Positions 1 through 62,814 of a stretch of 64,000 nucleotides of DNA are shown here, one piece after another. The translations under genes and the position numbers were made by a program. The first letter of the stretch is position 1; each line of letters opens with the position of its first letter. Source of the stretch: Branchiostoma lanceolatum (Eukaryota > Chordata > Leptocardii > Amphioxiformes > Branchiostomatidae); contig NC_089739.1 in assembly GCF_035083965.1 (NCBI RefSeq), positions 11,458,001-11,522,000 on the forward strand, in the 5' to 3' direction. Under the pieces are notes generated by a model. The model searched no databases. It was not told the DNA's origin and saw only the letters and a program-made list of their open reading frames with translations.

Positions 1-62
1 GTCAAAGAAGTCTTCAAAGGTCGAACGTATCGCACCGACTTGCACATCCGCAGGCAAGACCC
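1..62 (-). CDS. Gene 3 exon B12 (partial, cut by window edge)
   Basis: The acceptor lies just above 62 (CAG, then GGGTCTTGCC). Phase-1 entry gives GVLPADVQVGAIRSTFEDFF, the usual start of a B exon, with Phe-Phe-Asp where other copies have Tyr-Phe-Gly or Tyr-Tyr-Gly. Only the first 20 or so codons are in the window, so the array continues to the left. Confidence 0.85.
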
Positions 63-518
63 CTGAAATATAAAAACATGCAGTGTCAAATATTGTGGTT
101 CGTTATATGCAAACACATAAACAATGATAAAGCCAGTATTTACTAAAATATGTCTTCATTGAAATATACTAATCCCATAGCCTTGCTTATCCCCGTCAAA
201 ACGTAAAAATGCAAAATAATAACAAAAACGTTAAACTTTCAAATGTTTGAAAGACTGAAGATTCTCTCGCACTGGTCGAACCATGCTTTTATTGTTTCAG
301 CTTACAATTGTGATAAAGAGTCAACATCAGTCTATTGGTAAAAGTTAACGAACAGTCCTAGCCGACACATCACATTCTAAACAATAATCTCAAATAACTT
401 AATGGAATGGCAGAAGGCTCTGATCTGTTCTGATCCATAAAGACACATTTGATGCAATGGACTTAAAACAAAAAAATAGGTTATCGAAGTAATAAATTTC
501 AACTAAGACGGTACATAC

Positions 519-794
519 CTGTCAGGCCCTGGGTTATATCTAGGTTTTCCAACTCCGGTAACAAAAGCCCAGTATGTGTGACGCCAGGACCATTCTGGTA
601 CACCAACACCCAGCGCTCAGCATTCAGTTCCACATTGGCTGTTCCTGTTAGGTCGACTAGCGGCACGCCGTCTTGACTCTGCAGCTCTGTCAACGACACC
701 TGAAATTGTCCCAGCTGAAGTTCTTCTGACAGAGCAGCATCCAAGCTCGATTCCCATTCCGTCACGTCAGCACGCATGGCGGCATAATCGAAAA
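519..794 (-). CDS. Gene 3 exon A12 (first half of domain unit 12)
   Basis: This is a 276-bp phase 1-1 exon. Its acceptor TTTTCAG precedes TTTTCGATTATGCC (VFDYAAMRADV) and its donor is CTGACAG|GTATGT. It carries the A-type core motifs EWESSLDAALSEELQL, LTELQSQDGVPLV, AERWVLVYQNG and LLLPELENLDITQGL. The Ser-Ser in EWESS distinguishes it from most copies (ESN). Confidence 0.9.
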
Positions 795-990
795 CTGAAA
801 AAGAAATGGCATCAGTATATCATTTTGTCTGCAAGTTAGTGCCATGGTGTACTGTACAAGAGTGCACATTTTTGCGGAATATTCTACTTCTATCAAGTCA
901 TTTTAGAGGAAACCTAGAATGCTACCATCGATGGCATATATTTTAGAGAAGCTTGTTTAATATTCAAAAAAAAAATTATTATAGCATTAC

Positions 991-1302
991 CTTCGACAGT
1001 CGGTTGAGTAAAGCTGGCAAGAATGACTCTGTCAGTTGTACTTGCGGATACACTAATGCTGAACTCGACCTGGGGGTTGGTCTCCACAGACCATGACAAG
1101 CTTGCTGGAAGTCGTTGTAAGTAGAATCGTTCGTTCAACTCGATTCGACCTGGCACAGGAGCAGAGACATCCACCAGACTGCTGAAGTCCGTTGCAGACA
1201 TCATGCTGGCGTAGTCCGTTTGAAGACTGACAAGATGACTGCCATAGTAGTCTTCAAAGGTCGAACGTATAGAACCAACCTGCACATTTGCAGGCAAGGC
1301 CC
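991..1302 (-). CDS. Gene 3 exon B11 (second half of unit 11)
   Basis: This is a 312-bp phase 1-1 exon ending GTCGAAG|GTAATG. It reads GALPANVQVGSIRSTFEDYYGSHL, then ATDFSSLVDVSAPVP, GRIELNERFYLQRLPASLSW and FTQPTVEG (quoted in pieces). Private changes are PAN for PAD, GSI for GAI, ATDF for TTDF and Glu-Arg-Phe for Glu-Gln-Phe. The frame is intact. Confidence 0.9.
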
Positions 1303-1759
1303 CTGAATTATAAAAACATGCTATGTCAGCTATTGTTGTTCGCTATCTGCAAACACATACATGAACAATGACAAATGCAATATCTACCAAAATATAACTT
1401 CATTGAAATATAATAATCTCATAGCCTAGCCCACCTCCGTCGAAACGTGGAAATGCAAAATAACAACAAAAACTTTGCAAATGTTTGACGTACATGAACA
1501 TTCTCTCTCACTGGTCGAGGCATGCTTTCATTGTTTTTTAAATTACAATTGTAATGGAGAGTCATGATCGGTCTATTGATCAGACGTTGACATACAATTG
1601 TAGCCAATACATCACATTCTATATAACAATCTCATATAACTTCATATACTGGCAGAAGGCTCTCCATCAATTCTGATCCAGAAAGATACATTTGATGCAA
1701 TAAACTTAAAACAAAAAATATGAAATCGAAGTAATAGATTTCAACTAAGACGTACACAC

Positions 1760-2035
1760 CTGCCAGGCCCTGGGTTATATCTAGGTTTTCCAACTCTGGT
1801 AACAAAAGTCCTGTAAGTGTGACGCCAGAACTATTCTGGTACACCAACACCCAGCGCTCAGCAACCAGTTCCACATTGGCTGTTCCTGTTAGGTTGACTA
1901 GCGGCACTCCGTCTTGACTCTGCAGCTCTCTTAACGCCACCTGAAATTGTACCAGCTGAAGTTCGTCTGACAGAGCAGTATCCAAGTTCGATTCCCATTC
2001 CGTCACGTCAGCACGCATAGCAGCAAAATCGAAAA
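1760..2035 (-). CDS. Gene 3 exon A11
   Basis: This is a 276-bp phase 1-1 exon with donor GGCAG|GTGTGT. It starts VFDFAAMRADV. It is the most diverged of the late A copies: LSDELQLVQFQVALRELQS, VELVAERW, and YQNSSGVTLTG in place of YQNGPGVTHTG. It shares the last change and QGLAG with A10, so the two are probably sister duplicates. Confidence 0.9.
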
Positions 2036-2236
2036 CTGAAAACAAAATCGTAGCAGTACATCATTTTGTCTACTTTTTGCGCCCTTATATCGTGTACAAT
2101 TACAAGAATGGCACATTTTTGCTGAATATTGCACTATATTAAGTCATTTTAGAGGAAATCTAGAAGACTACCATCGATAGCATATATATGTAGATAAGGT
2201 TGCTTCATCTTCAAAATAATCTGTAATAAGCATTAC

Positions 2237-2548
2237 CTTCGACATTCGGTTGAGTAAAGCTTGCCAGAATGACTCTGTCAGTTGTACTTGGGGATACACT
2301 GATGCTAAACTCGACCTGAGGGTTGGTCTCCCAAGACCATGACAAGCTTGCTGGAAGTCGTTGTAAGTAGAATTGTTCGTTCAACTCGATTCGACTCGGC
2401 ACAGGAGCAGAGACATCCACCAGACTGCTGAAGTCCGTTGTAGACATCATGCTTGCGTAGTCCGTTTGAAGACTGACAAGATGACTGCCGAAGTAGTCTT
2501 CAAAGGTCGAACGTATGGCACCAACTTGCACATCCGCAGGCAAGACCC
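2237..2548 (-). CDS. Gene 3 exon B10
   Basis: This is a 312-bp phase 1-1 exon with donor GTCGAAG|GTAATG. It is a standard B sequence except that SWSV is replaced by SWSW and FTQPTVEG by FTQPNVEG. The second change alters the last residues before the exon junction. Confidence 0.9.
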
Positions 2549-3003
2549 CTGAAGTATAAAAACATGCTATGTCAGCTATTGTTGTTCGCTATCTGCAAAC
2601 ACATACATAAACAATGACAAATGCAATATCTACCAAAATATAACTTCATTGAAATATAATAATCTCATAGCCTAGCCCACCTCCGTCGAAACGTGGAAAT
2701 GCAAAATAACAACAAAAACTTTGCAAATGTTTGACGTACATGAACATTCTCTCTCATTGGTCGAGGCATGCTTCCATTGTTTCAAATTACAGTTGTAATG
2801 AAGAGTCATGATCGGTCTATTGATCAGACGTTGACATACAATTCTAGCCAATACATCACATTTTATGTAACAATCTCATATAACTTCATATAGTGCCAGA
2901 AGGCTCTCCATCAGTTCTGATCCAGAAAGATACATTTGATGCAATAAACTTAAAACAAAAAATATGAAATCGAAGTAATAGATTTCAACTTAGACGTACA
3001 CAC

Positions 3004-3279
3004 CTGCCAGGCCCTGGGTTATATCTAGGTTTTCCAACTCTGGTAACAAAAGTCCTGTAAGTGTGACGCCAGAACTATTCTGGTACGCCAACACCCAGCG
3101 CTCAGCAATCAGTTCCACATTGGCTGTTCCTGTTAGGTCGACTAGCAGCACTCCGTCTTGACTCTGCAGCTCTGTTAACGACACCTGAAATTGTTCCAGC
3201 TGAAGTTCTTCTGACAGAGCGGCATCCAAGTTTGATTCCCATTCCGTCACGTCAGCTCGCATGGCGGCATAATCGAAAA
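3004..3279 (-). CDS. Gene 3 exon A10
   Basis: This is a 276-bp phase 1-1 exon. It has ELQLEQFQVS, DGVLLVDLTG, VELIAERWVLAYQNSSGVTL and QGLAG. Directly above its acceptor the intron repeats the splice-site context (GAAAACTGAAAACTGAA on the plus strand), giving two adjacent possible CAG acceptors. The one adjacent to the usual TTTTCGATTATG start keeps the standard length. Confidence 0.9.
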
Positions 3280-3487
3280 CTGAAAACTGAACTGAAAAAT
3301 AAATGGCAGCAGTACATCATTTTGTCTGCTATTTAGTGCCATGGTGTACTGTACAAGAGTGGCACATTTTTGCTGAATATTCTACTTCTATCAAGTCATT
3401 TTAGTGGAAATCTAAAAGGCTACCAACGATAGCATATATGTTTAGAGAAGATTGCTTTATCTTCCAAATAATCTGCTTTAGCCTTAC

Positions 3488-3799
3488 CTTCGACAGTCGG
3501 TTGAGTAAAGCTGGCCAGAATGACTCTGTCGGTTGTACTTGGGGATACACTGATGCTAAACTCGACCTGGGGGTTGGTCTCCACAGACCATGACAAGCTT
3601 GCTGGAAGTCGTTGTAAGTAGAATTGTTCGTTCAGCTCAAGTCGAGTCGGCACAGGAGCAGAGACATCCACCAGGCTGCTGAAGTCCGTTGTAGACATCA
3701 TGTTTGCGTAGTCCGTTTGAAGATTGACAAGATGACTGCCGAAGTAGTCTTCAAAGGTCGAACGTATGGCACCGACTTGCACAACCGCAGGCAAGACCC
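3488..3799 (-). CDS. Gene 3 exon B9
   Basis: This is a 312-bp phase 1-1 exon with donor GAAG|GTAAGG. It has AVVQVGAIRSTFEDYF, LVNLQTDYANMM and PTRLELNEQFYLQ. Its predicted protein is the same as B7, because it lies within the recent 2,467-bp tandem duplication. Confidence 0.9.
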
Positions 3800-4247
3800 C
3801 TGAAATATATAAACTTGCTGTGTCAAATATTGTTGTTCGTTATCTGCAAACACATGAACAATGAGAAAGACAATATGTACTAAATTATACCTTCATTAAA
3901 ATATCCTAATCGACTAGCTCATCCCCGTCAAAACGCAGAAATGCAAAATAACAACAAAAACTTTGCAAATGTTTGACAGACATGAAGCTCGGCGATTTTC
4001 TCACACTGGTCGAACCAGTCTTCAATTTTTTTTTTCAAGTCACAATTCCAATGGAGAGTCATTATTGGTTTATTGGTCTGAAGTTAACGTACAATTCTAG
4101 CCAATTATAAATAATAATCTCATATAACTTCATTTACTGTCAGATGACTCTCTTTCAGTTCTGACCCACAAAGATACATTTTATGCAGTATGCTTAAAAC
4201 GATCAATTGGAAATCGAATATTAGATTTCAACTAATAATGTACATAC

Positions 4248-4523
4248 CTTTCAGGCCCTGGGTTATATCTAGGTTTTCCAACTCTGGTAACAAAAGTCCT
4301 GTATGTGTGACGCCAGGACCATTCTGGTACACCAACACCCAGCGCTCAGTATTCAGTTCCACATTAGCTGTCCCCGTTAGGTCGACTAGCGGCACTCCGT
4401 CTTGACTCTGCAGCTCTGTTAACGACACCTGAAATTGTCCCAGCTGAAGTTCCTCCGACAGAGCAGTATCCAAGCTCGATTCCCATACTGTCACGTCGGC
4501 TCGCAAAGCCGCATAATCGAAAA
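4248..4523 (-). CDS. Gene 3 exon A9
   Basis: This is a 276-bp phase 1-1 exon with LRADVTVWESSLDTALSEE, VELNTERW and QGLKG. It gives the same protein as A7 at an offset of 2,467 bp. The usual AMRADVTEW is changed to ALRADVTVW in both. Confidence 0.9.
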
Positions 4524-4719
4524 CTGAAAATGAATGGCAGCAGTATATCATTTTGTCGGCTATTTAGCGCCCTGGTGTACTGTACAAGAGTTACACATTT
4601 TTGCTGAATATTTTACTTCTATAAAGTCATTTTAGAGGCAACCTAGAGGCTACCAACGATAGCATGTATTTTTGGAGAAGCTTTTTTTTTATATTCAAAA
4701 TAATCTATTATAGCCTTAC

Positions 4720-5031
4720 CTTCGACAGTTGGTTGAGTAAAGCTGGCCAGAATGACTCTGTTGGTCGTACTTGGGGATACACTGATGCTAAACTCGACCT
4801 GGGGGTTGGTCTCCACAGACCATGACACGCTTGCTGGAAGTTGTTGTAAGTAGAATTGTTCGTTCAGCTCAACTCGACTCGGCACAGGAGCAGAGACATC
4901 CACCAGGCTGCTGAAGTCCGTTGTAGACATCATGCTGGCGTAGTCCGTTTGAAGACTGACAAGATGACTGCCAAAGTAGTCTTGAAACGTCGAACGTATG
5001 GCACCGACTTGCACATCCGCAAGTAAGACCC
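4720..5031 (-). CDS. Gene 3 exon B8
   Basis: This is a 312-bp phase 1-1 exon. It starts GVLLADVQVGAIRSTFQDYF (LLAD instead of LPAD) and has YLQQLPASVSW and STTNRVILASF. It gives the same protein as B6 at an offset of 2,467 bp. Confidence 0.9.
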
Positions 5032-5483
5032 CTGAAGTATAAAAACATGTTAAGTCAGCTATTGTTGTTCGTTATCTGCAAACACATGACCCATATGAAA
5101 GGCAATATTTACTATAATATACCTTCATTGAAATAGAATAATCCGATAGCCTAGCTCGCACCGGTCAAAACGTAGAGATGCAAAATAATAACAAACACTT
5201 AGCAAATGTTTGACGGTAATGAAAATTCTCTCTCACTGGTCGAGCCATACGTTCATTGTTTCAACTTACAGGTGTAATGGAAAGTCCTATTGGGTCCATA
5301 AATCTGAAGTTAACGTACAATTCAAGCCTATACCTCACATTACAGATGATAATCTCATATAACTTCATTTACTGGCTGAAGGCACTGCATCAGTTCTGAT
5401 CCATAAAGACACATTTGATGCAACAGGCTTAAACCAATCAATTGGAAATCGAAGTGATAGATTTCAACTAAGAAGGTACATAC

Positions 5484-5759
5484 CTGTCAGGCCCTGTGTT
5501 ATATCAAGGTTTTCCAACTCTGGTAACAAAAGTCCTGTATGTGTGACGCCAGGACCATTCTGGTACACCAACACCCAGCGCTCAGCATTCAGTTCCACAT
5601 TGGCTGTTCCTGTTAGGTTGACTATCGGCACTCCATCTTGACTCTGCAGCTCTGTTAACGACACCTGAAATTGTCCCAGCTGAAGTTCTTCTGACAGAGC
5701 AGCATCCAAGTTCGATTCCCATTCCGTCACGTCAGCACGCATGGCGGCATAATCGAAAA
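5484..5759 (-). CDS. Gene 3 exon A8
   Basis: This is a 276-bp phase 1-1 exon. It is a standard A sequence with DGVPIVNLTG and QGLTG. It is the near-identical partner of A6, differing at DGVPI versus DGLPL. Confidence 0.9.
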
Positions 5760-5954
5760 CTGAAAATAAATGGCAACAGCAAATCAATTTTTCTGCTATT
5801 TAGCGCAATAGTATAGTGTAAAAAAGTTGCACATTCTTTGTGAATATTCCATTCTATGAAGTCATTTCAGAGCAACACCTAGAAGGCTACCATCGATAGC
5901 ATACATTTTTAGTGTAGCTTTCTCAATTTTCAGAAAAAAATATTACAGCCTTAC

Positions 5955-6266
5955 CTTCGACAGTCGGTTGAGTGAAGCTGGCTAGAATGACTCTGTCGGT
6001 TGTACTTGGGGATACACTGATGCTAAACTCGACCTGGGGGTTGGTCTCCACAGACCATGACAAGCTTGCTGGAAGTCGTTGTAAGTAGAATTGTTCGTTC
6101 AGCTCAAGTCGAGTCGGCACAGGAGCAGAGACATCCACCAGGCTGCTGAAGTCCGTTGTAGACATCATGTTTGCGTAGTCCGTTTGAAGATTGACAAGAT
6201 GACTGCCGAAGTAGTCTTCAAAGGTCGAACGTATGGCACCGACTTGCACAACCGCAGGCAAGACCC
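5955..6266 (-). CDS. Gene 3 exon B7
   Basis: This is a 312-bp phase 1-1 exon. It encodes the same residues as B9, with silent changes near the 3' end that mark one border of the tandem duplication. Confidence 0.9.
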
Positions 6267-6714
6267 CTGAAATATATAAACTTGCTGTGTCAAATATTGT
6301 TGTTCGTTATCTGCAAACACATGAACAATGAGAAAGACAATATGTACTAAATTATACCTTCATTAAAATATCCTAATCGACTAGCTCATCCCCGTCAAAA
6401 CGCAGAAATGCAAAATAACAACAAAAACTTTGCAAATGTTTGACAGACATGAAGCTCGACGATTTTCTCACACTGGTCGAACCAGTCTTTAATTTTTTTT
6501 TTCAAGTCACAATTCCAATGGAGAGTCATTATTGGTTTATTGGTCTGAAGTTAACGTACAATTCTAGCCAATTATAAATAATAATCTCATATAACTTCAT
6601 TTACTGTCAGATGACTCTCTTTCAGTTCTGACCCACAAAGATACATTTTATGCAGTATGCTTAAAACGATCAATTGGAAATCGAATATTAGATTTCAACT
6701 AATAATGTACATAC

Positions 6715-6990
6715 CTTTCAGGCCCTGGGTTATATCTAGGTTTTCCAACTCTGGTAACAAAAGTCCTGTATGTGTGACGCCAGGACCATTCTGGTACACC
6801 AACACCCAGCGCTCAGTATTCAGTTCCACATTAGCTGTCCCCGTTAGGTCGACTAGCGGCACTCCGTCTTGACTCTGCAGCTCTGTTAACGACACCTGAA
6901 ATTGTCCCAGCTGAAGTTCCTCCGACAGAGCAGTATCCAAGCTCGATTCCCATACTGTCACGTCGGCTCGCAAAGCCGCATAATCGAAAA
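6715..6990 (-). CDS. Gene 3 exon A7
   Basis: This is a 276-bp phase 1-1 exon with the same protein as A9, including the ALRADVTVW and VELNTERW changes. The flanking introns are also nearly identical to those around A9. Confidence 0.9.
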
Positions 6991-7186
6991 CTGAAAATGA
7001 ATGGCAGCAGTATATCATTTTGTCGGCTATTTAGCGCCCTGGTGTACTGTACAAGAGTTACACATTTTTGCTGAATATTTTACTTCTATAAAGTCATTTT
7101 AGAGGCAACCTAGAGGCTACCAACGATAGCATGTATTTTTGGAGAAGCTTTTTTTTTATATTCAAAATAATCTATTATAGCCTTAC

Positions 7187-7498
7187 CTTCGACAGTTGGT
7201 TGAGTAAAGCTGGCCAGAATGACTCTGTTGGTCGTACTTGGGGATACACTGATGCTAAACTCGACCTGGGGGTTGGTCTCCACAGACCATGACACGCTTG
7301 CTGGAAGTTGTTGTAAGTAGAATTGTTCGTTCAGCTCAACTCGACTCGGCACAGGAGCAGAGACATCCACCAGGCTGCTGAAGTCCGTTGTAGACATCAT
7401 GCTGGCGTAGTCCGTTTGAAGACTGACAAGATGACTGCCAAAGTAGTCTTGAAACGTCGAACGTATGGCACCGACTTGCACATCCGCAAGTAAGACCC
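7187..7498 (-). CDS. Gene 3 exon B6
   Basis: This is a 312-bp phase 1-1 exon with the same protein as B8 (FQDYF, YLQQLPASVSW, TTNRVIL). The neighbouring introns differ from those of B8 by a few single bases, so this is a recent copy rather than the same sequence assembled twice without change. Confidence 0.9.
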
Positions 7499-7950
7499 CT
7501 GAAGTATAAAAACATGTTAAGTCAGCTATTGTTGTTCGTTATCTGCAAACTCATGACCCATATGAAAGGCAATATTTACTATAGTATACCTTCATTGAAA
7601 TAGAATAATCCGATAGCCTAGCTCGCACCGGTCAAAACGTAGAGATGCAAAATAATAACAAATACTTAGCAAATGTTTGACGGTAATGAAAATTCTCTCT
7701 CACTGGTCGAGCCATACGTTCATTGTTTCAACTTACAGGTGTAATGGAAAGTCCTATTGGGTCCATAAATCTGAAGTTAACGTACAATTCAAGCCTATAC
7801 CTCACATTACAGATGATAATCTCATATAACTTCATTTACTGGCTGAAGGCACTGCATCAGTTCTGATCCATAAAGACACATTTGATGCAACAGGCTTAAA
7901 CCAATCAATTGGAAATCGAAGTGATAGATTTCAACTAAGAAGGTACATAC

Positions 7951-8226
7951 CTGTCAGGCCCTGTGTTATATCAAGGTTTTCCAACTCTGGTAACAAAAGT
8001 CCTGTATGTGTGACGCCAGGACCATTCTGGTACACCAACACCCAGCGCTCAGCATTCAGTTCCACATTGGCTGTTCCTGTTAGGTTGACTAGCGGCAATC
8101 CATCTTGACTCTGCAGCTCTGTTAACGACACCTGAAATTGTCCCAGCTGAAGTTCTTCTGACAGAGCAGCATCCAAGTTCGATTCCCATTCCGTCACGTC
8201 AGCACGCATGGCGGCATAATCGAAAA
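7951..8226 (-). CDS. Gene 3 exon A6
   Basis: This is a 276-bp phase 1-1 exon. It matches A8 except DGLPLVNLTG. It is the upstream-most A exon inside the 2,467-bp duplicated segment. Confidence 0.9.
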
Positions 8227-8420
8227 CTGAAAATAAATGGCAATAGCAAATCAATTTTTCTGCTATTTAGCGCAATAGTATAGTGTACAAGAGTGGCACA
8301 TTCTTGGTGAATATTCCATTCTATGAAGTCATTTCAGAGCAACACCTAGAAGGCTACCATCGATAGCATACATTTTAGTGTAGCTTACTTTATTTCCAGA
8401 AAAAAATATTACAACCTTAC

Positions 8421-8732
8421 CTTCGACAGTCGGTTGAGTAAAGCTGGCCAGAATGACTCTGTCAGTTGTACTTGCGGATACACTGATGCTAAACTCGACC
8501 TGGGGGTTGGTCTCCACAGACCATGACAAGCTTGCTGGAAGTCGTTGTAAGTAGAATTGTTCGTTCAACTCGATTCGACTCGGCACAGGAGCAGAGACAT
8601 CCACCAGGCTGCTGAAGTCCGTTGTAGACATCATGATTGCGTAGTCCGTTTGAAGACTGACAAGATGACTGCCATAGTAGTCTTCAAAGGTCGAACGTAT
8701 GGCACCGACTTGCACATCCGCAGGTAAGACCC
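8421..8732 (-). CDS. Gene 3 exon B5
   Basis: This is a 312-bp phase 1-1 exon. It has FEDYYGSHL, DYAIMMSTTDF and SVSASTTDRVILASF. Its intron flanks resemble those of B7, which fits an older shared duplication. Confidence 0.9.
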
Positions 8733-9057
8733 CTGAAATATAAAAACATAATATGTCAGCTGTCATTGTTCGTTATCTGCAAACACATGACCAATGAGAA
8801 AGCCGATACTTACTTAAATATACCTTCATTGAAATATCCTAATCCCTTAGCCTAGCTCATTCCCGTCCAAACGTATAAATGCAAAATAATAACGAACGTT
8901 AAACTTTCAAATGTTTGAAAGACATGAAGATTCTCTCTCACTGGTACATGGTCGAGCCATGCTTTCATTGTTTCAACTTACAATTGTAATGAAGAGTAAG
9001 GACCAGTCTATTGATCAGAAGTTAACGAACAGTCCTAGCCGACACATCACATTCCAA

Positions 9058-9128
9058 ACAACCTCATATACGCCAAACAAAGTTACTCAAGCAACTGGAT
9101 AAAATTTTGAAGAGAACAACCTCATATA
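9058..9128. repeat. 58-bp intronic insertion flanked by a 13-bp direct repeat
   Basis: ACAACCTCATATA occurs at 9058-9070 and again at 9116-9128. The 45 bp between are absent from the equivalent introns of the other units and contain CAAGCAACTGGATAAAAT. A nearly identical stretch occurs in intron 1 of gene 2 at about 44412-44440. This may be the footprint of a small dispersed element with a target-site duplication. Confidence 0.55.
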
Positions 9129-9250
9129 ACTTTATTTACTGGCTGAAGGCACTGCATCAGTTCTGATCCATAAAGACACATTTGATGCAACAGGCTTAAA
9201 ACAATCAATTGGAAATCGACGTGCTAGATTTTAACTTAAAAGGTTCATAC

Positions 9251-9526
9251 CTGTCAGGCCCTGGGTTATATCTAGGTTTTCCAACTCTGGTAACAAAAGT
9301 CCTGTATGTGTGACGCCAGGACCATTCTGGTACACCAACACCCAGCGCTCAGCATTCAGTTCCACGTTGGCTGTTCCTGTTAGGTCGACTAGCGGCACTC
9401 CGTCTTGACTCTGCAGCTCTGTTAGCGACACCTGAAATTGTCCTAGCTGAAGTTCTTCTGACAGAGCAGCATTCAAGTTTGATTCCCATTCCGTCACGTC
9501 AGCACGCATGGCGGCATAATCGAAAA
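9251..9526 (-). CDS. Gene 3 exon A5
   Basis: This is a 276-bp phase 1-1 exon with EWESNLNAALSEE (Asn for the usual Asp) and an otherwise standard core. The intron on its donor side carries a 58-bp insertion (9071-9128). Confidence 0.9.
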
Positions 9527-9735
9527 CTGAAAATAAATGGCAGCAGTACATCATTTTGTCAGAGTCATTTTGTCTGCTATTCAGTGCCTTGGTGTACTGT
9601 ACAAGACTGGCAAATTTTTGCTGAATACTCTATTTCTATAGAGTAATTTTAGAAGAAACCTAGAATGCAGTCAACGATAGCCTATAGTTTAAGAGAAACT
9701 TGATTCATCTTTAAGATAACCTATTATGGCCATAC

Positions 9736-10047
9736 CTTCGACAGTCGGTTGAGTAAAGCTGACCAGAATGACTCTGTCCGTTGTACTTGCGGATACACTG
9801 ATGCTAAACTCGACCTGGGGGTTGGTCTCCACAGACCATGACAAGCTTGCTGGAAGTCGTTGTAAGTAGAATTGTTCGTTCAACTCGATTCGACTCGGCA
9901 CAGGAGCAGAGACATCCACCAGGCTGCTGAAGTCTGTTGTAGAGATTATGCTGGCGTAGTCCGTTTGAAGACTGACAAGATGACTGCCAAAGTAATCTGG
10001 AAAGGTCGAACGTATGGCACCGACTTGCACATCCGCAGGCAAGACCC
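9736..10047 (-). CDS. Gene 3 exon B4
   Basis: This is a 312-bp phase 1-1 exon with donor GAAG|GTATGG. It has FPDYFGSHL (Pro for Glu), DYASIISTTDF and VILVSFTQP. Confidence 0.9.
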
Positions 10048-10508
10048 CTGAAATATAAAAAAAACTTGCTATGTCAGCTATTGTTGTTCGTTATCTGCAA
10101 ACACGTGATCAATTAATAGGGCAAAAGTTACTCAAATATACCTTCATTGAAATATCCTAATCCCATGGCCCAGCTCACCCCCGTCAAAACGTAGAAATGC
10201 AAAATAACAACAAAAAAATTTGCAAATGTTTGACAGACCTGAAGATTCTCTCTCACTGGTTAAATCATTCTTTAATTTTTTTTCAACTTACAATTGTAAT
10301 GGAGAGTCATGATCGGTCAATTAATCAGAATTTAACGTACAATCCTAGTCAAAAGATTACATTCTGAATATCAATCTCATATCATTTCCTTTACTGGCAC
10401 AAGGCTCTGCATCAGTTCTGATCCAGAAAGACACATTTTATGCAACAGGCTTAAAACAATCAACTGGAAATCAAAGTATTAGATTTCAACGAAGAAGGTA
10501 GTACATAC

Positions 10509-10784
10509 CTGTCAGGCCCTGGGTTATATCTAGGTTTTCCAACTCTGGTAACAAAAGCCCTGTATGTGTGACGCCAGAACCATTCTGGTACACCAACACC
10601 CAGCGCTCAGCATTCAGTTCCACATTGGCTGTTCCTGTAAGGTCGACTAGCGGCACTCCGTCTTGACTTTGCAGCTCTGTTAACGACACCTGTAACTTTC
10701 CAAGTTGAAGTTCTTCCGACAGAGCAGCATCCAAGTTCGATTCCCATTCCGTCACGTCAGCACGCATGGCGGCATAATCGAAAA
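10509..10784 (-). CDS. Gene 3 exon A4
   Basis: This is a 276-bp phase 1-1 exon with ELQLGKLQVSLTELQ and YQNGSGVTHTG. The intron that follows B4 and leads to this exon keeps the family pattern. The intron before it (10785-10957) is shorter and different from the other B-to-A introns. Confidence 0.9.
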
Positions 10785-10957
10785 CTGAAAAAAGACAAAA
10801 AAAGAAAACAATATAATATTAATGGTGATCTGCAAAATAGTAGCAAACTGTTGCAAATATCCGATGGACCCATTTTAGACAAAAGGACGAAGGAAAACAA
10901 CGGTAGTTAATATTTCAACTGAGGCTTAATATTCATAATAACTCATCAAAGACACAC

Positions 10958-11269
10958 CTTCGACACTCGGTTGAGTAAAGCTGACCAGAATGACTCTGTC
11001 AGTTGTACTTGCGGAGACACTGATGCTAAACTCGACCTGGGGGTTGGTCTCCACAGACCATGACAAGCTTGCTGGAAGTCGTTGTAAGTAGAATTGTTCG
11101 TTCAGCTCAACTCGACTCGGCACAGGAGCAGAGACATCCACCAGGCTGCTGAAGTCCGTTGTAGACATCATGCTGGCGTAGTCCGTTTGAAGACTGACAA
11201 GATGACTGCCAAAGTAGTCTTCAAAGGTCGAACGTATGGCACCGACTTGCACATCCGGAGGCAAGACCC
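10958..11269 (-). CDS. Gene 3 exon B3
   Basis: This is a 312-bp phase 1-1 exon with donor GAAG|GTGTGT. It starts GVLPPDVQVGAIRSTFEDYF and ends FTQPSVEG. It is the first B exon of the younger clade (AIRSTFEDYF type rather than AIRNAVQLYF). Confidence 0.9.
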
Positions 11270-11728
11270 CTGAAGTATGAAAATATGCTATGTCAGCTAT
11301 TGTTGTTTGTTATCTGCAAACACATGACCAATGAGAAAGGCAATATTTACTAAAATATATCTTTATTGAAATATTCTAACCCCATAGCCTAGCCCATTTC
11401 TATCAAAATGTAGAAATGCAAATAACAACAAAAACTATGTAAATGTTCAACCTACATGAAGATTCCCTCTCACTGGTCGAGCCATGCTTTCATTGTTTAA
11501 ACTTATAAATACTATAGACAGTCATGATCGATCTTTTGATCAGAAGTTAACGTACATTATCCTAGACTGCACATCACATTCTATATAGTAATCTCATATA
11601 ACTTAATTTACTGGCAGAAGGCTCTTCATTAGTTCTGATCCAGAAAGATGCATTTGACGCAATAGGCGTAAAACGATCAATTGGAAATCGAAGTAACAGA
11701 TTTCAACTAAGAAGTTACATGTACATAC

Positions 11729-12004
11729 CTTTCAGGCCCTGGGTTATATCTAGGTTTTCCAACTCTGGTAACAAAAGTCCTGTATGTGTGACGCCAGGAC
11801 CATTCTGGTACACCAACACCCAGCGCTCAGCATTCAGTTCCACATTGGCTGTTCCTGTTAGGTCGACTAGCGGCACTCCGTCTTGACTCTGCAGCTCTGT
11901 TAGCGACACCTGAAATTGTCCCAGCTGAAGTTCCTCTGACAGAGTAACATCCAAGTTCGATTCCCATTCCGTCACGTCAGCACGCATAGCCACATAATCG
12001 AAAA
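11729..12004 (-). CDS. Gene 3 exon A3
   Basis: This is a 276-bp phase 1-1 exon with VFDYVAMRADV, ESNLDVTLSEELQ and QGLKG. It is the first A exon of the younger clade. Confidence 0.9.
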
Positions 12005-12200
12005 CTGAAAAAGAAATGGCAGCAGCATATAATTTTTTTCTGCATTTTAGTGCCCTCGTGTACTGTACAAGAGTGCACATTTTGCTGAATATTTTACTTC
12101 TGTAAAGTCATTTCGGAGCAACACCTAGAAGGCTACCAACGATAGCATATATGTTTAGAGAAGCTTGCTGTATCTTCCAAATAATCGGCAATAGCCTTAC

Positions 12201-12512
12201 CTTCGACAGTAGGTTGGGTAAAGCTGGCCAGAATGATTCTGTTGGTTGTACTTGCGGATACACTGATGCTAAACTCGACCTGGGGATTGGTCTCCACCGA
12301 CCATGACAAGCTTGCTGGAAGTCGTTGTAAACAGAATCGTTCGTTCAGCTCAACTAGACTCGGCACAGGAGCAGAGACATCCACCAGGCTACTGAAGTCC
12401 GTTGTAGACATCATGCTTGTGTAGTTCGTTTGAAGGCTTTCAAGATGGCGGCCGAAGTAGAGTTGTACGGCATTGCGTATGGCACTGACCTGAACTTCCG
12501 CAGGCAAAACCC
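12201..12512 (-). CDS. Gene 3 exon B2 (older clade, with Cys)
   Basis: This is a 312-bp phase 1-1 exon with acceptor CAACAG|GGGTTTTGCC. It has AEVQVSAIRNAVQLYFGRHL, LESLQTNYTSMM and NERFCLQRLPASLSW. The Cys replaces the Tyr found in units 3-11. It shares this and its flanking intron sequence with B1, setting units 1-2 apart. Confidence 0.9.
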
Positions 12513-12770
12513 CTGTTGTCGTGCAACGAAGAACATGTTCCACATATTTCATAACATATAATGAATTGAAAAACAAGATAAGGAGATAGCAACTGTTTGG
12601 GTTTAACAATAGAAAAACACTTTGAAAAATAGATAAAACAAGAACATATTCAATGGCAGATGCTAAGATAAGCTCTAGTTGTTTCAAATCGATTCACTTT
12701 ACGTGTATTCGAACTATCGGTGGAAATGGTAAGAATTCGATAATATTTTAAGATTTAGAACTAAACACAC

Positions 12771-13046
12771 CTGTCAGATCCTGGGTTATGTCTAGATTTT
12801 CTAACTCCGGCAAAATAAGTCCTGTATGAGTGACGCCCGGACCTTCCTTGTACACCAACACCCAGCGCTCAGCATTCAGTTTCACATTGGCTGTTCCAGT
12901 AAGATTGACCAGTGGCATTCCGTCTTGACTCTGCAGCTCTGTTAGCGACACCTGGAACTCTCTCAGCTGAAGTTCCTCCGACAGAGCAGTATCCAAGTTC
13001 GATTCCCACGCTGTTACGTCAACACGCATAGCCGCATAATCGAAAA
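12771..13046 (-). CDS. Gene 3 exon A2 (older clade)
   Basis: This is a 276-bp phase 1-1 exon with AMRVDVTAWESNL, ELQLREFQVS, NVKLNAERWVLVYKEGPGV and ITQDLTG. YKEGPG and ITQDL are shared only with A1. Confidence 0.9.
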
Positions 13047-13228
13047 CTGAAAAAGAAATGGCATCAGTATATCATTTTGTCTGCCATTTAGTGCCCTGGT
13101 ATATTGTACAAGAGTGGCACATTTGCTGAATATTTTACTTCAGAATCTGTTAAGTAATTTTAGAGGAAACCTAGAAGGCTACCAACAATGGCATATATGT
13201 TCAGAGAAGCTTGCTGTATCATCCAAAT

Positions 13229-13620
13229 AATCTGCTTTATCCTTTTTTTTACTTTTTTTTATCGCATTCTACAAGAAGAACAATAATACAAACAAGAGAA
13301 AATCAAAGTACAGGAAAAAGAACATAAGCCACAGATCCAAAGCAATAAGTAAAGGTGGAAACAGAAATGGACTACTTGTAAAATATAAGTAATATCCAAA
13401 ATAATAGTAATAACAGCCTCATTGGCAAATAGATATAACAAAATCAGTATCAACCAAAGATAGCTAAATATGGAAATTAAACAGAAGTAAAGTTGACAAA
13501 TCAATATGAAAAGTCCATATCAACAGAATCATGAGAACATAGATAACAAAAACAAATAACAGCGACTGATCAGTGGCGAATACAAATGGTAAAAAAAAAA
13601 ACAATATCAACCAATCTGCT
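13229..13620. mobile_element. Possible ~380-bp intronic insertion with 8-bp target-site-like repeat
   Basis: Compared with sister introns, in which AATCTGCT is followed at once by the exon-B donor context, this copy has about 380 extra AT-rich bases. AATCTGCT stands on both sides (13229-13236 and 13613-13620). A poly-T run opens the insert and a poly-A run lies near its other end. Eight-bp duplications are typical of hAT transposons, but I see no clear terminal inverted repeat and no coding capacity. Confidence 0.45.
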
Positions 13621-13630
13621 ATAGCCTCAC

Positions 13631-13942
13631 CTTCGACAGTCGGTTGAGTAAAGCTGACAAGAATGACTCTGTCCGTTGTACTTGGAGAGACACTGATGCT
13701 AAACTCGACCTGGGGGTTGGCCTGCACAGACCATGACAAGCTTGATGGAAGTCGTTGCAAACAGAATCGCTCGTTCAGCTCAACTAGACTCGGCACAGGA
13801 GCAGAGACATCCACCAGGCTGCTGAAGTCCGTTGTAGACATCATGCTTGTGTAGTTCGTTTGAAGGCTTTCAAGATGGCGGCCGAAGTAGAGCTGTACGG
13901 CATTGCGTATCGCACTGACCTGAACTTCCGCAGGCAAAACCC
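13631..13942 (-). CDS. Gene 3 exon B1 (older clade, with Cys)
   Basis: This is a 312-bp phase 1-1 exon with donor GAAG|GTGAGG. It has AIRNAVQLYFGRHL, NERFCLQRLPSSLSW, SVQANPQVEF and VILVSFTQPTVEG. Confidence 0.9.
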
Positions 13943-14210
13943 CTGTTGTCGTGCAACGAAGAACATGTTCCATATATTTCATTACATATAATGAATTGAC
14001 AAACAAGGCAAGGATACAGAAACTGTTTGGGTTTAACAATAGAAAAACACTTTGAAAAAATTGATAAAACAATAACAACATATTCTATCATAATGGCAGA
14101 TGCTAAGATAAGCTCTAGTCGTTTCAAATCGATTAACTTTATGTGTATTCGAACTATCGGTGGAAATGGTAAGAATTCGATAATATTTCAAGATTTAGAA
14201 CTAAACACAC

Positions 14211-14486
14211 CTGTAAGATCTTGGGTTATGTCTAGATTTTCTAACTCTGGCAGCAAAAGCCCTGTATGAGCGACTCCAGGACCTTCCTTGTACACCAACA
14301 CCCAGCGCTCTGCATTCAGTTCCACATTGGCTGTTCCTTCAAGACTGGTCAGCAGCACTCCGTCTTGACTTTGCAGCTCTGTTAGCGACACTTGGAATTG
14401 TTCCAGCTGAAGTTCTTCGGATAGCGCAGCATCCACATTTGATAGCCATGCCGTTACGTCCACTTGCATGACATCGTATTCAAACA
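14211..14486 (-). CDS. Gene 3 exon A1 (first domain unit, joined to the Thr-rich exon)
   Basis: This is a 276-bp phase 1-1 exon. Its acceptor GTCAACAG precedes TGTTTGAATACGATG. The preceding exon supplies T, so the junction codon is TTG and the protein reads LFEYDVMQVDVTAW instead of the usual VFDYAAMRADV. It also has LLTSLEGTANV. It is the most diverged A copy, as expected for the founding end of the array. Confidence 0.9.
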
Positions 14487-14926
14487 CTGTTGACAATGTA
14501 ATACAAATAGTTGTATCTCTCTGATAACAGCGCAGCTCTGCATATTAACGTTAGAAAAATAAACTGGAACCCTTGGCACTGTTGTGATCCCTTTTGTATA
14601 GTGTGAATGTTCTTTAACAAGGATATATGATTTTCTGTGCCAGGATTCTAACAACACTATTTAATTTCATTAAAGTAAGGGTGTGCTCCATTTAGTAATT
14701 TGAGTCACAAGTAATTAAGCTACTAACACAATTTATATCAAACCTAGCTTTGTCTTGTTTCCTTTATAATTTTACACGAAACATTGAAAATGTATAACAC
14801 ATATTACGCAACTTCTGTCGGTTTCACCAGTTTATGATGAGCTTATGATGTTGCATTATATTGCCTGACCCTTGTCAATGTTGAAGATAGGTTGGGAATT
14901 GATTAGTATTCGATAGAATGACTTAC

Positions 14927-17900
14927 AAGGTCCATTTGGTCCCCCTGTGGAGTAGGTTGTTGTGGAAATAGTTGTTGGTACAGTCGTCTCTGGTTTTGTT
15001 GTTTCGATTGAGAATGGGCTTGTTGTCGTTTGGCTAGTTGCTTGAAGTGGCGTTGTTGCAGTCGATGCTATTGTAGAAGACCTTGTTGTAGGGCCAACGG
15101 TTGAAACAGTCGTCTCTGGTTTCGTTGTTTCGGTTGAGAATTGGCTTGTTGTCTTTTGGCTAGTTGCTTGAAGTGGCGTTGTTGCAGTCGATGCTATTGT
15201 AGAAGACCTTGTTGTAGGGCCAACGGTTGAAACAGTCGTCTCTGGTTTCGTTGTTTCGGTTGAGAATTGGCTTGTTGTCTTTTGGCTAGTTGCTTGAAGT
15301 GGCGTTGTTGCAGTCGATGCTATTGTAGAAGACCTTGTTGTAGGGCCAACGGTTGAAACGGTCGTCTCTGCTTTTGTTGTTTCGGTTGAAAAATGACTTG
15401 TTGTCTTTTGGCTAGTTGTTTGAAGTGGCGTTGTTGCAGTAGATGCTATTGTAGAAGACCTTGTTGTAGGACCAGCGGTTGAAACGGTCGTCTCTGCTTT
15501 TGTTGTTTCGGTTGAAAAATGACTTGTTGTCTTTTGACTGGTTGCTTGAAGTGGCGTTGTTGCAGTAGATGCTATTGTAGAAGACCTTGTTGTAGGACCA
15601 GCGGTTGAAACGGTCGTCTCTGCTTTTGTTGTTTCGGTTGAAAAATGACTTGTTGTCTTTTGACTGGTTGCTTGAAGTGGCGTTGTTGCAGTAGATGCTA
15701 TTGTAGAAGACCTTGTTGTAGGACCAGCGGTTGAAACGGTCGTCTCTGCTTTTGTTGTTTCGGTTGAAAAATGACTTGTTGTCTTTTGACTGGTTGCTTG
15801 AAGTGGCGTTGTTGCAGTAGATGCCATTGTAGAAGACCTTGTTGTAGGACCAGCGGTTGAAACGGTCGTCTCTGGTTTTGTTGTTTCTGTTGAGAATTGA
15901 CTTGTTGTCTTTTGTCTAGTTGTTTGAAGTGGCGTTGTTGCGGTAGATGCTATTGTAGATACCTTTGGTTTTGTTGTGTGACCAGCAGTTTTGACTGTTG
16001 TTCTAGTTGTGAACTGACCAGACGTGTGTTCAATTGTTGTAACTGGCACTGTTACAGTAGAAGCTAGTGTAGAGGCTAGTGTTGAGGCCCTTGTTGTAGA
16101 TACCATAGTTGTGGCTGTCGTCTCTGGTTTAGTTGTTTCGGTTGAGAAATGGCTTGTTGTCTTCTGACTTGTTGTTGTTGCGGTAGATGCTATTGTAGAG
16201 GCTATATGTTCTGTTGTGTGACCAGCAGTTTTGACTGTTGTCTCAGTTGTAAACTGACCAGATGTTTCTTGACTCGTTGTAAATGGCATTGTTGTAGTGG
16301 ATGCTATTGAAGAAGCCCTTGTTGTAGAAGCAGCAGTGGTGACTGTGGTTTCTGGTTGTGTTGTTTCAGTTGTGCCCTGGCTAGATGTTCTTGCACTTGT
16401 TGTTGTAAATGGCATTGTAGCAGTAGATGATATGGTAGAGGCTCTTGTAGTAGGACCATCAGTTGTGCGTAATGTTTCTACTACCGTTTTATGAGTCGTC
16501 GGCTGATCAGTTGCTCTTTCTCTTGTTGTAAATGGCATTGTTGCTGTAGATACTATTGACGAGGCCCTTGTTGTAGGGCGAGCGGTTGGTACAGTCGTCT
16601 CTGCCTTTGTTGTTTTAGTTGAGAACTGGCCTGTTGTAATTCTACTTGTTGTTTGAGATTGTGCTCTCAAGGTGGATGCTACGGTTGAGGCCGGTGTTGT
16701 ACGACCAGCTGTTTTAACTGTTGTTTCAGTTGTAAACTGATCAGGTGTTTCTTGACTTGTTGTAATGGGCATCGTTGTAGTTGAAGCAATTGTAGAAGCC
16801 CTTGTTGTAGATCCAGCAGTCGTGATTGTCGATTCTGGTTGTGTTGTTTCAGTTGTGCCCTGGCTAGATGTTTCTTGACTCGTTGTAAATGGCATTGTTG
16901 TAGTAGTTGCTATTGAAGAAGCCAGTGTTGTAGATGCAGCCGTGGTGGCTGTTGTGTCTGGTTGTATTGTTTCAGTTGTGCCCTGGCTAGATGTTTTTGC
17001 ACTTGTTGTTGTAAATGGCATTGTAGCAGTAGATGATATGGTAGATACTCTTGTAGTAGGACCCTGGGTTGTACCCAATGTTTCTACTACCGTTTTATGA
17101 GTTGTCGGCGGACCAGTTGTTCTTTCTTCTGTTGTAAATGGCAATGTTTCAATAAATGTTGTACTAGAGGCCATTGTTGTTGGACTGGTGGTTGGTACAG
17201 TCATCTCTGGCTTTGTCGTTACTGTTGAGAACTGGCCTGTTGTAATTCTACTTGTTGTTTGAGATTGTGCTCTCGATGTGGATGCTACGGTTGAGGCCCC
17301 CGTTGTACGACCAGCTGTTTTGACCGTTGTTTCAGTTGTGAACTGGCCAGATGTTTCTTGACTTGTTGTAATTGGCATTGTTGTAGTAGATGCTATTGAA
17401 GAAGCCCTTGTTGTAGAAGCAGCAGTGGTGACTGTCGTTTCTGGTTGAGTTGTTTCAGTTGTGCCCAGGCTAGATGTTATTGCACTTGTTGTTGTAAATG
17501 GCATTGTAGCAGTGGATGCTATGGAAGAAGCCCTACTTGTAGAACCAGCAGTGGTGACTGTCGTTTCTGGTTGTGTTGTTTCAGTTGTTAAAAACTGGCT
17601 AGACGTTTTTGCACTTGCCGTTGTAAATGGCATTGTAGCAGTAGATGATATGGTAGATACTCTTCTGGTAGGACCCGCGGTTGTACCCAATGTTTCTACT
17701 ACCGTTTTATGAGTTGTCGGCGGACCAGTTGTTATTTCCTCTGTTGTAAATGGCAATGTTTCAATAAATGTTGTACTAGAGGCCGTTGTTGTTGGACTGG
17801 TGGTTGGTACAGTCGTCTCTGGCTCTGTTGTTGCAATTGAGAACTGGCCTGTTGTAATTTTAGTTGTTTGAGCTTGTGCCTTTGGAGTAGATGGTACGGT

Positions 17901-20900
17901 TGATGCTGTTGATGTACGACCAACAGTTGTGACGGTTGTTTCTATTGTAAGCTGACCAGATGTTTCTTGACTTGTTGTAACTGGCATTGTTTCAGTGGAT
18001 GCTATAGAGGAGGTCCTCACTGTAGAACCAGCGGTCGTAACTGTCGTTTCCGATTGTGTTGTTTCAGTTGTTAACGGACTAGATGTTACTTGACTTGTTG
18101 TGATTGGCATTGTTGCAGTGGATGCTATGGAAGAAGCCCTACTTGTAGAACCAGCAGTGGTCATTGTCGTTTCTGGTTGTGTTGTTTTAGTTGTTAAAAA
18201 CTGGCTAGATGTTTTTGCAATTGCCGTTGTAAATGGCATTGTAGCAGTAGATGATATGGTGGAGGCTCTTGTAGTAGGGCCATCGGTTGTGCTCAATGTT
18301 TCTACTACCGTTTTATAAGTTGTCGGCTGATCAGTTGCTCTTTCTCTTGTTGTAAATGGCATGGTTTCAGTAGATGTTGTAGTAGAGGCCCTCGTTGTAG
18401 GACCAGCCGTTGGTACAGTCGTCTCTTGCTTTGTCATTAGAGTTGACAACTGGTCTGTTGTAATTTTATCTGTTGTTTGAGACTGAGCTTTTGCAGTAGA
18501 TGCTATTGTTGATGCCCCTGTTGTACGACCGGCGGTTTTGACTGTTGTTTCGGTTGTAGACTGTCCAGACGTTTCTTGACTTGTTGTAACTGGCGTTGTT
18601 GCAGTGGATTCTATAGAGGAAGCCCTTGTTGTAGACCCAGCAGTCGTGACTGTCGTTTCTGATTGTGTTGGTTCAGTTGTAAACGGACCAGATGTTACTT
18701 GACTTGTTGTAACTGGCGTTGTTGCAGTGGATGCTATAGAGGAAGCCCTTGTTGTAGACCCAGCAGTCGTGACTGTCGTTTCTGATTGTGTTGTTTTAGT
18801 TGTTAACTGGTCAGACATTTTTGAACTTGTTGTAAGTGGCATTGTTGCAGTAGATGATATGGTAGAGGCTCTTGTAGAGGGACCCGCGGATGTACCCAAT
18901 GTTTCTACTACAGTTTTATGCGTTGTTGGCTGACGAGTTGTTCTTTCTCTTGTTGTAAATGGCATGGTTGCGGTAAACTCTATAGTAGAGCCACTTGTCG
19001 TCAAACTGATTGTTGGTACAGTCGTCTCTGAGTTCGTTAGAGTTACAGTTGAGAGCTGGTCTGTTGTATTCTTACTTGTTGTTTCAGATGGAACACTTTT
19101 AGTAGATACTACGGTTGAAGCCCCCGTTGTACGACTGGCAGTTTTGACGGTTGTTTCAGTTGGAAACTCATCAGATGCTACTTGACTTGTTGTGATTGGC
19201 ATTGTGGCAGTGGATGCTATGGAAGAATCCCTACTTGTAGAACCAACTGTGGTGACCGTCGTTTCTGGTTGTGTTGTTTCAGTCGTGGATTGGCCTGAGG
19301 TTTTTGCAATCGCTGTTGTAAATGGCATCGTAGCAGTAGATGAAATCGTGGTAGAGGCTCTTGTCGTAGGACCCGCGGTTGTGGCCAATGTTTCTACTAC
19401 CGTTTTATAAGTTGTCGGCTGATCAGTTGCTCTTTCTCTTGTTGTAAATGGCATGGTTTCAGTAGATGTTGTAGTAGAGGCACTCGTTGTAGGACTCGCC
19501 GTTGGTACAGTCGTCTCTTGCTTTGTCGTTAGAGTTGACAACTGGTCTGTTGTAATTTTACTTGTTGTTTGAGACTGAGCTTTTGCAGTAGATGCTATTG
19601 TTGATGCCCCTGTTGTACGACCAGCAGTTTTGACTGTTGTTTCAGTTGTAAACTGTCCAGATGTTATTTTGCTTGTTGTAACTGGCGTTGTTGCAGTGGG
19701 TGCCATAGAAGAAGCCTTTGTTGTAGATCCAGCAGTCGTCATTTCTGGTTGTGTTGTTGCAGTTGTAAACTCGTCAGATGTTCTTGAACTTGTTGTTGTA
19801 AATGGCACTGTTGCAGTAGATGATATGATAGAGGCTCTTGTAGTAGCACCGGCGGTTGTGCCCAATGTTTCTACTACAGTTTTATGAGTTGTCGGTTGAC
19901 CAGTTGTTCTTTCTTCCGTTGTAAATGGCATTGTTGCCGTCGATTCTTTTGATGAGGCCATTGTCGTAGATTCGATGGTTGGTACAGTCGTCTCTGGCTT
20001 TGTTGTCAGAGTTGTGAACTGGCCAGTTGTAATTTTACTTGTCTGAGATTGTGCCCTTGTAGTAGATGCTGTGGTTAAAGTCTTTGTTGTACGACCAGTA
20101 GTTTTGACTGTTGCCTCAGTTGTAAACTGATCAGACGTTGTTGTACTTGTTGTATATGGTATTGTTGCAGTGGATGCTGTGGAAGACGCCCCTGCTGTTG
20201 AACTAGTGGTTGTGAGTGTTGTTTCTGGTTGTGTCATTTCAGATGTGACCTGGCCAGACGTTTTTATATTTGTTGTTGTAAATGGCATGGTTTCAGAAGG
20301 CACTTTAGTAGATGTTCTTGTTGTAGGAACTAAGGTTGTTTCTAAGGTCTCGATTACTGTTTTAAATGTTGTCAACGGGCCAGTTGTTGTTTCCGCTGTT
20401 GTTGTAAACGGAATTGCTGCAGTAGATGACATAGTAGAAGACCTTGTCGTTTGAAAAGCAGTTTTTACAGTCGACTCCGGTTTTGTTCTTTCAGTTGTGT
20501 ACTGGCCTGTTGTTATTTTACCTGTTGTTGTAGATGGTGTTTGTATTGTAGATGCCTCTGAAGAGGCTGTTGTTTCATCACCAGCTGTCCTAGCTGTTGT
20601 TTCTGTAGTGAACTGATCAGTTGTTTTAACAGTTGTCGTAAGAGGCATAGTTGCGGTAGTTATTGTAGAGGCCCTTGCTGAGGGACCGGCGGTTGTGAAC
20701 GTTGTTGCTGGCTTTGTTGTTACAGTTGTTACCTCCTCAGTTGTTGTTTCACTTGTTGTCGAGGGAAGTGCTGTAGTATATGCTATTGTAGAAGCCCTTG
20801 TTGTAGGACCAGCGGTTGTGCCTAGCGTCTCTAGTATGGTTCTATGAGTTGTGATCTGAGGCGTTGTTATTTCGTTTGTTGTAAATGGCATTGTTGCTGT

Positions 20901-21475
20901 TGATCCTATTGTAGGGGACACTCGTGAAGGAGTAGCAGATGCGACTGTCGTGGTTGGTTCTGTTGTAATAGTCGTAAACTTGCCAGTTGTTGTATCACTT
21001 GCTGGTGTCGAGATCCTTGTTGTAGTACTAGCGGTTGGTACAGTCGTCTCCGTTTGTTTAGTTACACCGGAGAAGTGGCCTGTTGTCTTTTCACTTGTCG
21101 TAAATGACATGGTTGAAGTGGATGTTGTTGTAGAGGCCCTTGTTGTAGAACCAGCAGTGGTGACTGTCGTTTCTGGTTGTGTCGTTTCAGTTGTGAACTG
21201 GCTAGATGTTTTGGCGCTTGTTGTTGTAAATGGCATTGTTGCTGTAATCGTAGAAGTCCCTTTTTTAGGAACAGGTGTTGTGCCTAGCGTCTCTAGTACT
21301 GTTTTAAATGTTGTTAATGGACCAGTTGTTATTTTGTTTGTTGTTGTAAGTGGCAGCGTTGTTCTTGTTGTAGGGCTCGTAGTTGCGTCAATCGCCTCCG
21401 CATCTGTGTTTACAGCTGTGGACTGGTCACGTGTTGTTGCCTTCATTGTTGTCATCTTGGTAGTTGTAACAGTCT
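14927..21475 (-). CDS. Gene 3 exon 3: 6,549-bp Thr-rich mucin exon
   Basis: This single exon of 2,183 codons has no internal stop. Its acceptor TTGTATTATAG precedes AGACTGTTACAACTACC (ETVTTTKM after the split codon) and its donor is GGACCTT|GTAAGTC, both phase 1. Roughly 40 percent of residues are Thr, with much Ser and Pro and no Cys, as in heavily O-glycosylated mucin domains. The body is made of degenerate blocks such as ASTATMPFTTTSAKTSSQ and ETTVTTAGSTTRASSI. The carboxy-terminal third ends in about eight copies of a 42-residue repeat (TTPLQATSQKTTSHFSTETT and on). It links the amino-terminal mucin exon to the A/B domain array. Plus-strand open frames here are antisense artefacts. Confidence 0.85.
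15010..15970. repeat. 126-bp coding tandem repeat in the Thr-rich exon of gene 3
   Basis: About eight tandem copies of a 126-bp (42-codon) unit lie here, each including TSQKTTSHFSTETTKAETTV and STAGPTTRSSTIAS. The central copies are almost identical, which suggests recent slippage or unequal exchange. The unit length keeps the frame. Confidence 0.85.
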
Positions 21476-29897: not shown

Positions 29898-29994
29898 CTG
29901 TATCTGTTCTCACTTCCTCCGTCGAACACCATTGTGTGAAGAAAATCACTTGCAGGACGAAAATCCAAAACGCGAGTTCAGTAAGTCTGCACAT
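29898..29994 (-). CDS. Gene 3 exon 1: signal peptide
   Basis: The 97-bp coding part reads MCRLTELAFWIFVLQVIFFT then QWCSTEEVRTDTG, and ends at donor ATACAG|GTATGT in phase 1. It has a short basic start, a hydrophobic core (FWIFVLQVIFF) and a likely cleavage point near QWCS. I chose the ATG before TGC because an upstream ATG runs into TGA. In gene 2 the same upstream ATG stays in frame, and the difference is a 7-base duplication. The gene 2 paralogue at 44536-44632 supports both start and donor. Confidence 0.8.
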
Positions 29995-62697: not shown

Positions 62698-62814
62698 CTA
62701 GACAATAATATAGAACAATCTCCTGTATTATACTTTGACCAACGTACCAGAAGATGTAAGAAAATTAGTACGCGCCCGTTCTAAGTTCATCTCATCTATA
62801 CCATCTATCTAGAA

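Follow-up and report, generated by a model that had tools for sequence, protein, structure and literature searches.

We analysed a 64,000-nucleotide stretch of the Branchiostoma lanceolatum genome (assembly GCF_035083965.1, contig NC_089739.1, positions 11,458,001 to 11,522,000; hereafter the window), the minus strand of which carries long threonine/serine-rich (PTS) open frames followed by 12 or more two-exon units in tandem. From position 14486 to the window edge, 12 A exons of 276 bp and 11 complete B exons of 312 bp alternate without exception. The features are listed below in the order of the minus strand; all complete exons were placed by tblastn and exon fit.

14927–21542, minus: open frame with the PTS (Thr/Ser-rich) exon preceding the array (frame, composition, and donor CCTT/GTAAGT in phase 1)
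14211–14486, minus: A exon, unit 1 (276 bp, phase 1-1; the module next to the PTS exon)
13631–13942, minus: B exon, unit 1 (312 bp)
12771–13046, minus: A exon, unit 2
12201–12512, minus: B exon, unit 2
11729–12004, minus: A exon, unit 3
10958–11269, minus: B exon, unit 3
10509–10784, minus: A exon, unit 4
9736–10047, minus: B exon, unit 4
9251–9526, minus: A exon, unit 5
8421–8732, minus: B exon, unit 5
7951–8226, minus: A exon, unit 6
7187–7498, minus: B exon, unit 6
6715–6990, minus: A exon, unit 7
5955–6266, minus: B exon, unit 7
5484–5759, minus: A exon, unit 8
4720–5031, minus: B exon, unit 8
4248–4523, minus: A exon, unit 9
3488–3799, minus: B exon, unit 9
3480–5820, minus: near-identical block, units 8–9 (99.6% to the block of units 6–7)
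3004–3279, minus: A exon, unit 10
2237–2548, minus: B exon, unit 10
1760–2035, minus: A exon, unit 11
991–1302, minus: B exon, unit 11
519–794, minus: A exon, unit 12
1–62, minus: B exon, unit 12, truncated at the window edge (tblastn match of 20 residues)

The A and B exons comprise 92 and 104 codons respectively, and an A+B unit 196 residues. AG/GT borders and phase 1 at both ends were seen at all 23 complete exon loci (12 A and 11 B). The exon finder had been given the two lengths as input, and the 23 full, ungapped tblastn matches to the A and B consensus sequences are therefore an independent sign of constant exon length: the 12 A matches each span 276 bases (92 codons) and the 11 B matches each 315 bases (105 codons). 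Short matches with an expectation value (E) of 1.9 or worse were set aside. When joined by script, the array exons gave 2,248 codons with no stop, while the other two forward frames held 92 and 28 stops (A) and 25 and 31 stops (B). The constant lengths, phase 1-1 borders and open frame reported in a first-pass annotation of the window were thus confirmed at every complete exon, and its intron range of 170–580 bp is close to the 173–584 bp that we measured. As a B fragment lies at positions 1–62, the array extends past window position 1. Judged by its frames, phase, splice signals and selection (below), the array looks like real coding sequence with predicted splicing.

Purifying selection on the A and B exons is clear. 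The mean ratio of nonsynonymous to synonymous change (dN/dS) over all pairs was 0.22 for A and 0.31 for B, with changes at codon positions 1, 2 and 3 numbering 442, 350 and 996 in A and 412, 321 and 705 in B. For the units after the first two, the per-site difference was 0.061 in A exons and 0.055 in B exons, as against 0.171 in aligned A-to-B introns and 0.234 in aligned B-to-A introns. The intron alignments covered 9 of 11 A-to-B and 10 of 11 B-to-A introns (three length outliers were excluded; the intron after unit 2 was retained in the B-to-A set) and contained 37 distinct gap intervals, 18 and 19 respectively, at a minimum of 246 and 169 substitutions. Were indels as frequent relative to substitutions in the exons as in these introns, our own arithmetic would predict ∼10 to 18 of them there, but none was found, at 58 + 55 (A + B) minimum substitutions without units 1 and 2 or 111 + 92 with all units. 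Synonymous change was low in A residues 51–70 (proportion of synonymous differences, pS, 0.064) and B residues 37–50 (pS 0.087) relative to the other eight stretches (0.112–0.297), the stretch borders having been picked after the alignment had been viewed. This suggests local gene conversion or constraint at the DNA level; the ratio of 0.96 in A 51–70 is uninformative because synonymous changes are few there too.

The history of the copies is uneven. Units 3–11 share 91.0–99.7% DNA identity, whereas units 1 and 2 are 80.3–86.9% identical to these and 88.1% identical to each other. The description of the units as diverged copies therefore holds only in part. Units 1 and 2 (12201–14486) also have shorter A-to-B introns (268 and 258 bp, where the remaining nine measure 448–518 bp), and their B acceptor (CAACAG) is different; they look like an older subfamily on the PTS side. 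The block at 3480–5820 (units 8–9) recurs 2,467 bp further on (units 6–7) with 99.6% identity over 2,341 bp. Identity drops on both flanks within B-to-A introns; therefore two whole A+B units were copied, and the 196-residue pair proposed earlier as the unit is what was copied in this one clear duplication. The constancy of exon length had also been attributed to selection on the unit. The purifying selection and the absence of exon indels against 37 intron gaps support this in part, but recent duplication accounts for part of the constancy, because units 3–11 are so alike in DNA.

Directly before the array, the frame at 14856–21542 contains 36% threonine, 13% serine and 6% proline. Its exon ends in ...GGPNGP at the GTAAGT donor; this border has phase 1 and matches the frame of the first A exon. 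A pyrimidine-rich candidate acceptor near 21475 marks the putative 5′ border of the PTS exon. The 5′ edge of the frame (21475–21542) resembles a signal peptide (MFKTFISLILFCII), although these letters may be otherwise explained because the candidate acceptor overlaps them. The composition of the joined array is different: aspartate plus glutamate number 295 against 77 lysine plus arginine, threonine plus serine make up 19%, and there are only two cysteines in 2,248 residues, in line with the near absence of cysteine first noted. There are nine N-glycosylation sequons, unevenly spread, and no transmembrane-like stretch was found in the joined array (largest 19-residue Kyte-Doolittle mean 1.1). 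Such a composition would suit an extended string of modules that is extracellular and soluble, more than a chain with dense O-glycosylation or disulphide links.

Structure prediction, suggested as a check in the first-pass annotation, was run for A and B separately using AlphaFold2 on a shallow alignment. The A model (predicted local distance difference test score, pLDDT, 51.9) has a strand, a helix and four strands, and the B model (pLDDT 38.8) two helices and then two strands. Both are too low in confidence to carry a claim, and, being mixed alpha/beta, they lend no support to the mainly beta structure proposed before. Chou-Fasman and hydrophobic-moment labels disagreed over the A helix and did not show the B helix, and were not used as proof.

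We consider it unlikely that A and B are diverged copies of one domain of ∼100 residues, such that the array would consist of ∼24 single-exon domains of a single family. Both exons are symmetric (phase 1-1) and similar in length, and the low-confidence models place a helix in the first third, with strands after it, in both. However, comparison of the A and B profiles gave no match (5 columns, E 0.3), in six settings between 46 and 602 of 1000 shuffles scored as high as their alignment, and A and B alternate strictly and are copied as pairs. A short stretch that appeared alike by eye was rejected as a sign of internal homology, being unsupported by the profile comparison and the shuffle tests.

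Searches for known families gave no significant match. With Pfam, the A, B and AB consensus sequences had no match at E up to 10, and BAB and spliced unit 1 matched unrelated families only, at E 0.056 or worse (DUF6006 at 0.056 in BAB). The 12 A and 11 B members searched singly yielded matches to four unrelated families, none of which was hit by more than two members (best E 0.038). The weak matches included Bunya_NS-S (0.038 in one B member; 0.2 in spliced unit 1), RBDV_coat (0.039, two B members), YukD (0.14), Head-tail_con (0.2) and DUF5348 (0.25). NCBIfam, searched with the AB consensus only, gave no match; among PDB sequences the best E was 0.71 for the AB consensus and 0.72 for the A profile, with none for the B profile. 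Rfam gave nothing at the gathering threshold. Pattern matches in viral contigs (45 and 103) and in bacterial and archaeal genome contigs (49 and 87) were not upheld by tblastn at E 1e-3. The earlier statement that the unit matches none of the common domain families therefore stands for these libraries, which produced no strong match to a known family. In titles and abstract openings from the literature we met no description of such an array, which does not prove that none exists.

SEA is an extracellular alpha/beta module of ∼100–120 residues that occurs beside PTS regions (the Pfam profile has 106 positions); its GSVVV-type site is autoproteolytic and is absent in some SEA domains. The A and B modules resemble it in size and in their place beside a PTS region, and the low-confidence A model (strand-helix-strand-strand-strand-strand) is likewise mixed alpha/beta. 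It is nevertheless rather doubtful that the modules belong to SEA or another known alpha/beta domain type and have diverged beyond the reach of Pfam, which would make the gene a MUC16-like mucin. The layout is that of MUC16, with a PTS region and then several folded modules (PMC1552070), and local alignment of A to one MUC1 SEA domain gave a z-score of 2.6, a value reached by 26 of 1000 shuffles. In contrast, B, AB and BA gave z-scores of −0.5, 1.0 and 1.1. Pfam scans with a cut-off of E 10 returned no SEA (PF01390) match for A, B, AB, BAB or unit 1, and single scans of the 12 A and 11 B members with a cut-off of E 1 returned none either, though the same library found the MUC1 SEA domain, used as a positive control, at 7.2e-14. 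Neither VWD nor SEA was found in the Pfam scans of the array modules, and one loose GSVVV-like pattern had no match in 2,248 residues, in agreement with the absence of this motif reported at first. A resemblance by eye between the helix-then-strand stretch of A and MUC1 SEA was discarded, given these z-scores and the lack of a Pfam match.

On the minus strand, seven large frames contain 28–36% threonine, 8–16% serine and 5–7% proline, and an eighth (61493–62764) contains 16% threonine and 9% serine. Their classification as PTS domains is by composition alone rather than by the PTS test of PMC1552070. Donors were sought in ten upstream frames with one donor pattern. Three lie inside their frame (14926, 32025 and 46926), all in phase 1; candidates at 42114 and 22100 lie outside their frames, both in phase 0; and the remaining five frames have no donor. 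A single in-frame TAA (57672–57674) separates two neighbouring PTS open frames, 1,090 and 3,100 codons long, that share a reading frame. A single in-frame TAG (41821–41823) separates an exon-like start (SPAVTLKRLLEDF) from its 2,310-codon continuation; a sister frame starting at 26498 stays open at the place matching this TAG. Because these stops separate the upstream PTS frames, we do not claim a single intact 60-kb gene.

By eye, the blocks at 32300–48205 and 14856–32158 hold PTS frames in like order (a TSEAS frame, a SPAV...LERLIQDF frame and a TKRTTMMATT/TKMTTMKATT frame), which suggests a large internal duplication. Minisatellites of ∼41 bp with like units lie at 26843–27201 and 42427–43338, each upstream (minus strand) of the SPAV frame of its block. 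Minus-strand frames of at least 38 codons in the seven gaps between PTS frames were read by eye only, and of two non-PTS stretches taken from larger frames, one gave DUF4830 in a Pfam scan (E 0.085) and the other nothing.

It is very improbable that the array is an assembly artefact or a dead array, its count swollen by repeated haplotypes or a pseudogene: the repeated 2,341-bp block and the upstream in-frame stops point that way, but all 23 complete exons are open and in frame with dN/dS well below 1, and, since the 11 complete units differ by 3.7–19.7% in exon DNA, barring two near-identical pairs among units 6–9, at least 10 of the 12 units survive even if the block is an assembly error.

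The array modules are thus coding and constrained, unmatched in the libraries compared, and MUC16-like in layout with no family membership shown. We think it probable that they make up a tandem array under constraint, with 12 or more two-exon units, on the 3′ side, within the window, of a large mucin-like extracellular gene, and act as a rod or spacer. The unit would be the two symmetric phase 1-1 exons of 92 and 104 codons, and the array would have grown through duplication of, or unequal exchange between, complete A+B units, the borders of which fall in B-to-A introns. In the protein, an O-glycosylated Thr/Ser-rich stretch would be followed directly by an unbroken, very acidic and nearly cysteine-free chain of folded modules. 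Placed between the mucin brush and the part that follows, this chain may act as a stiff spacer or as an adhesive rod; the part that follows, outside the window, would be a membrane anchor or additional domains. Secretion, the separate folding of the modules and the rod or spacer role are what we infer from these properties.

Several points weigh against this interpretation. The window stops, at position 1, short of the gene's end and of any anchor. The upstream stops may mean that the upstream part is broken, mis-assembled, interrupted by unseen introns or another gene, and the near-identical 2,341-bp block could be an assembly repeat. Transcription and splicing of the array are deduced from DNA alone, and, the A and B models being poor, folding of the modules is a prediction.

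MUC16-type membrane mucins have a PTS region and then several SEA domains, according to PMC1552070 (2006). The array gene likewise has tandem modules after a Thr/Ser-rich region. However, its modules lack a SEA match and are almost free of cysteine; they adjoin one another with no PTS linker between them, are paired as A+B, and are each encoded by a single exon; and no membrane anchor is seen in the window, past position 1 of which the gene runs. In extracellular animal proteins, symmetric phase 1-1 modules have spread by exon shuffling and tandem duplication. The array agrees with this in having single-exon, tandemly duplicated modules with phase 1 at both ends, but differs in that two dissimilar exons alternate strictly and are copied as a pair.

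A new domain family for A+B is possible with respect to Pfam, NCBIfam and PDB sequences. More specifically, and tentatively, the pair may represent a new extracellular family, a strongly acidic two-module unit with almost no cysteine, multiplied in whole units into a rod of at least 24 modules within a mucin-type gene, and so, in addition to VWD and SEA, a third kind of folded domain to accompany PTS regions. One published screen (PMC1552070) takes as mucins those proteins that have a VWD or SEA domain next to PTS regions. If the interpretation is correct, a mucin-like gene with another folded module, invisible to Pfam, would escape a screen based on VWD and SEA, and the addition of whole A+B pairs would illustrate how intron-to-intron exchange can extend a rod-like protein with its reading frame intact.

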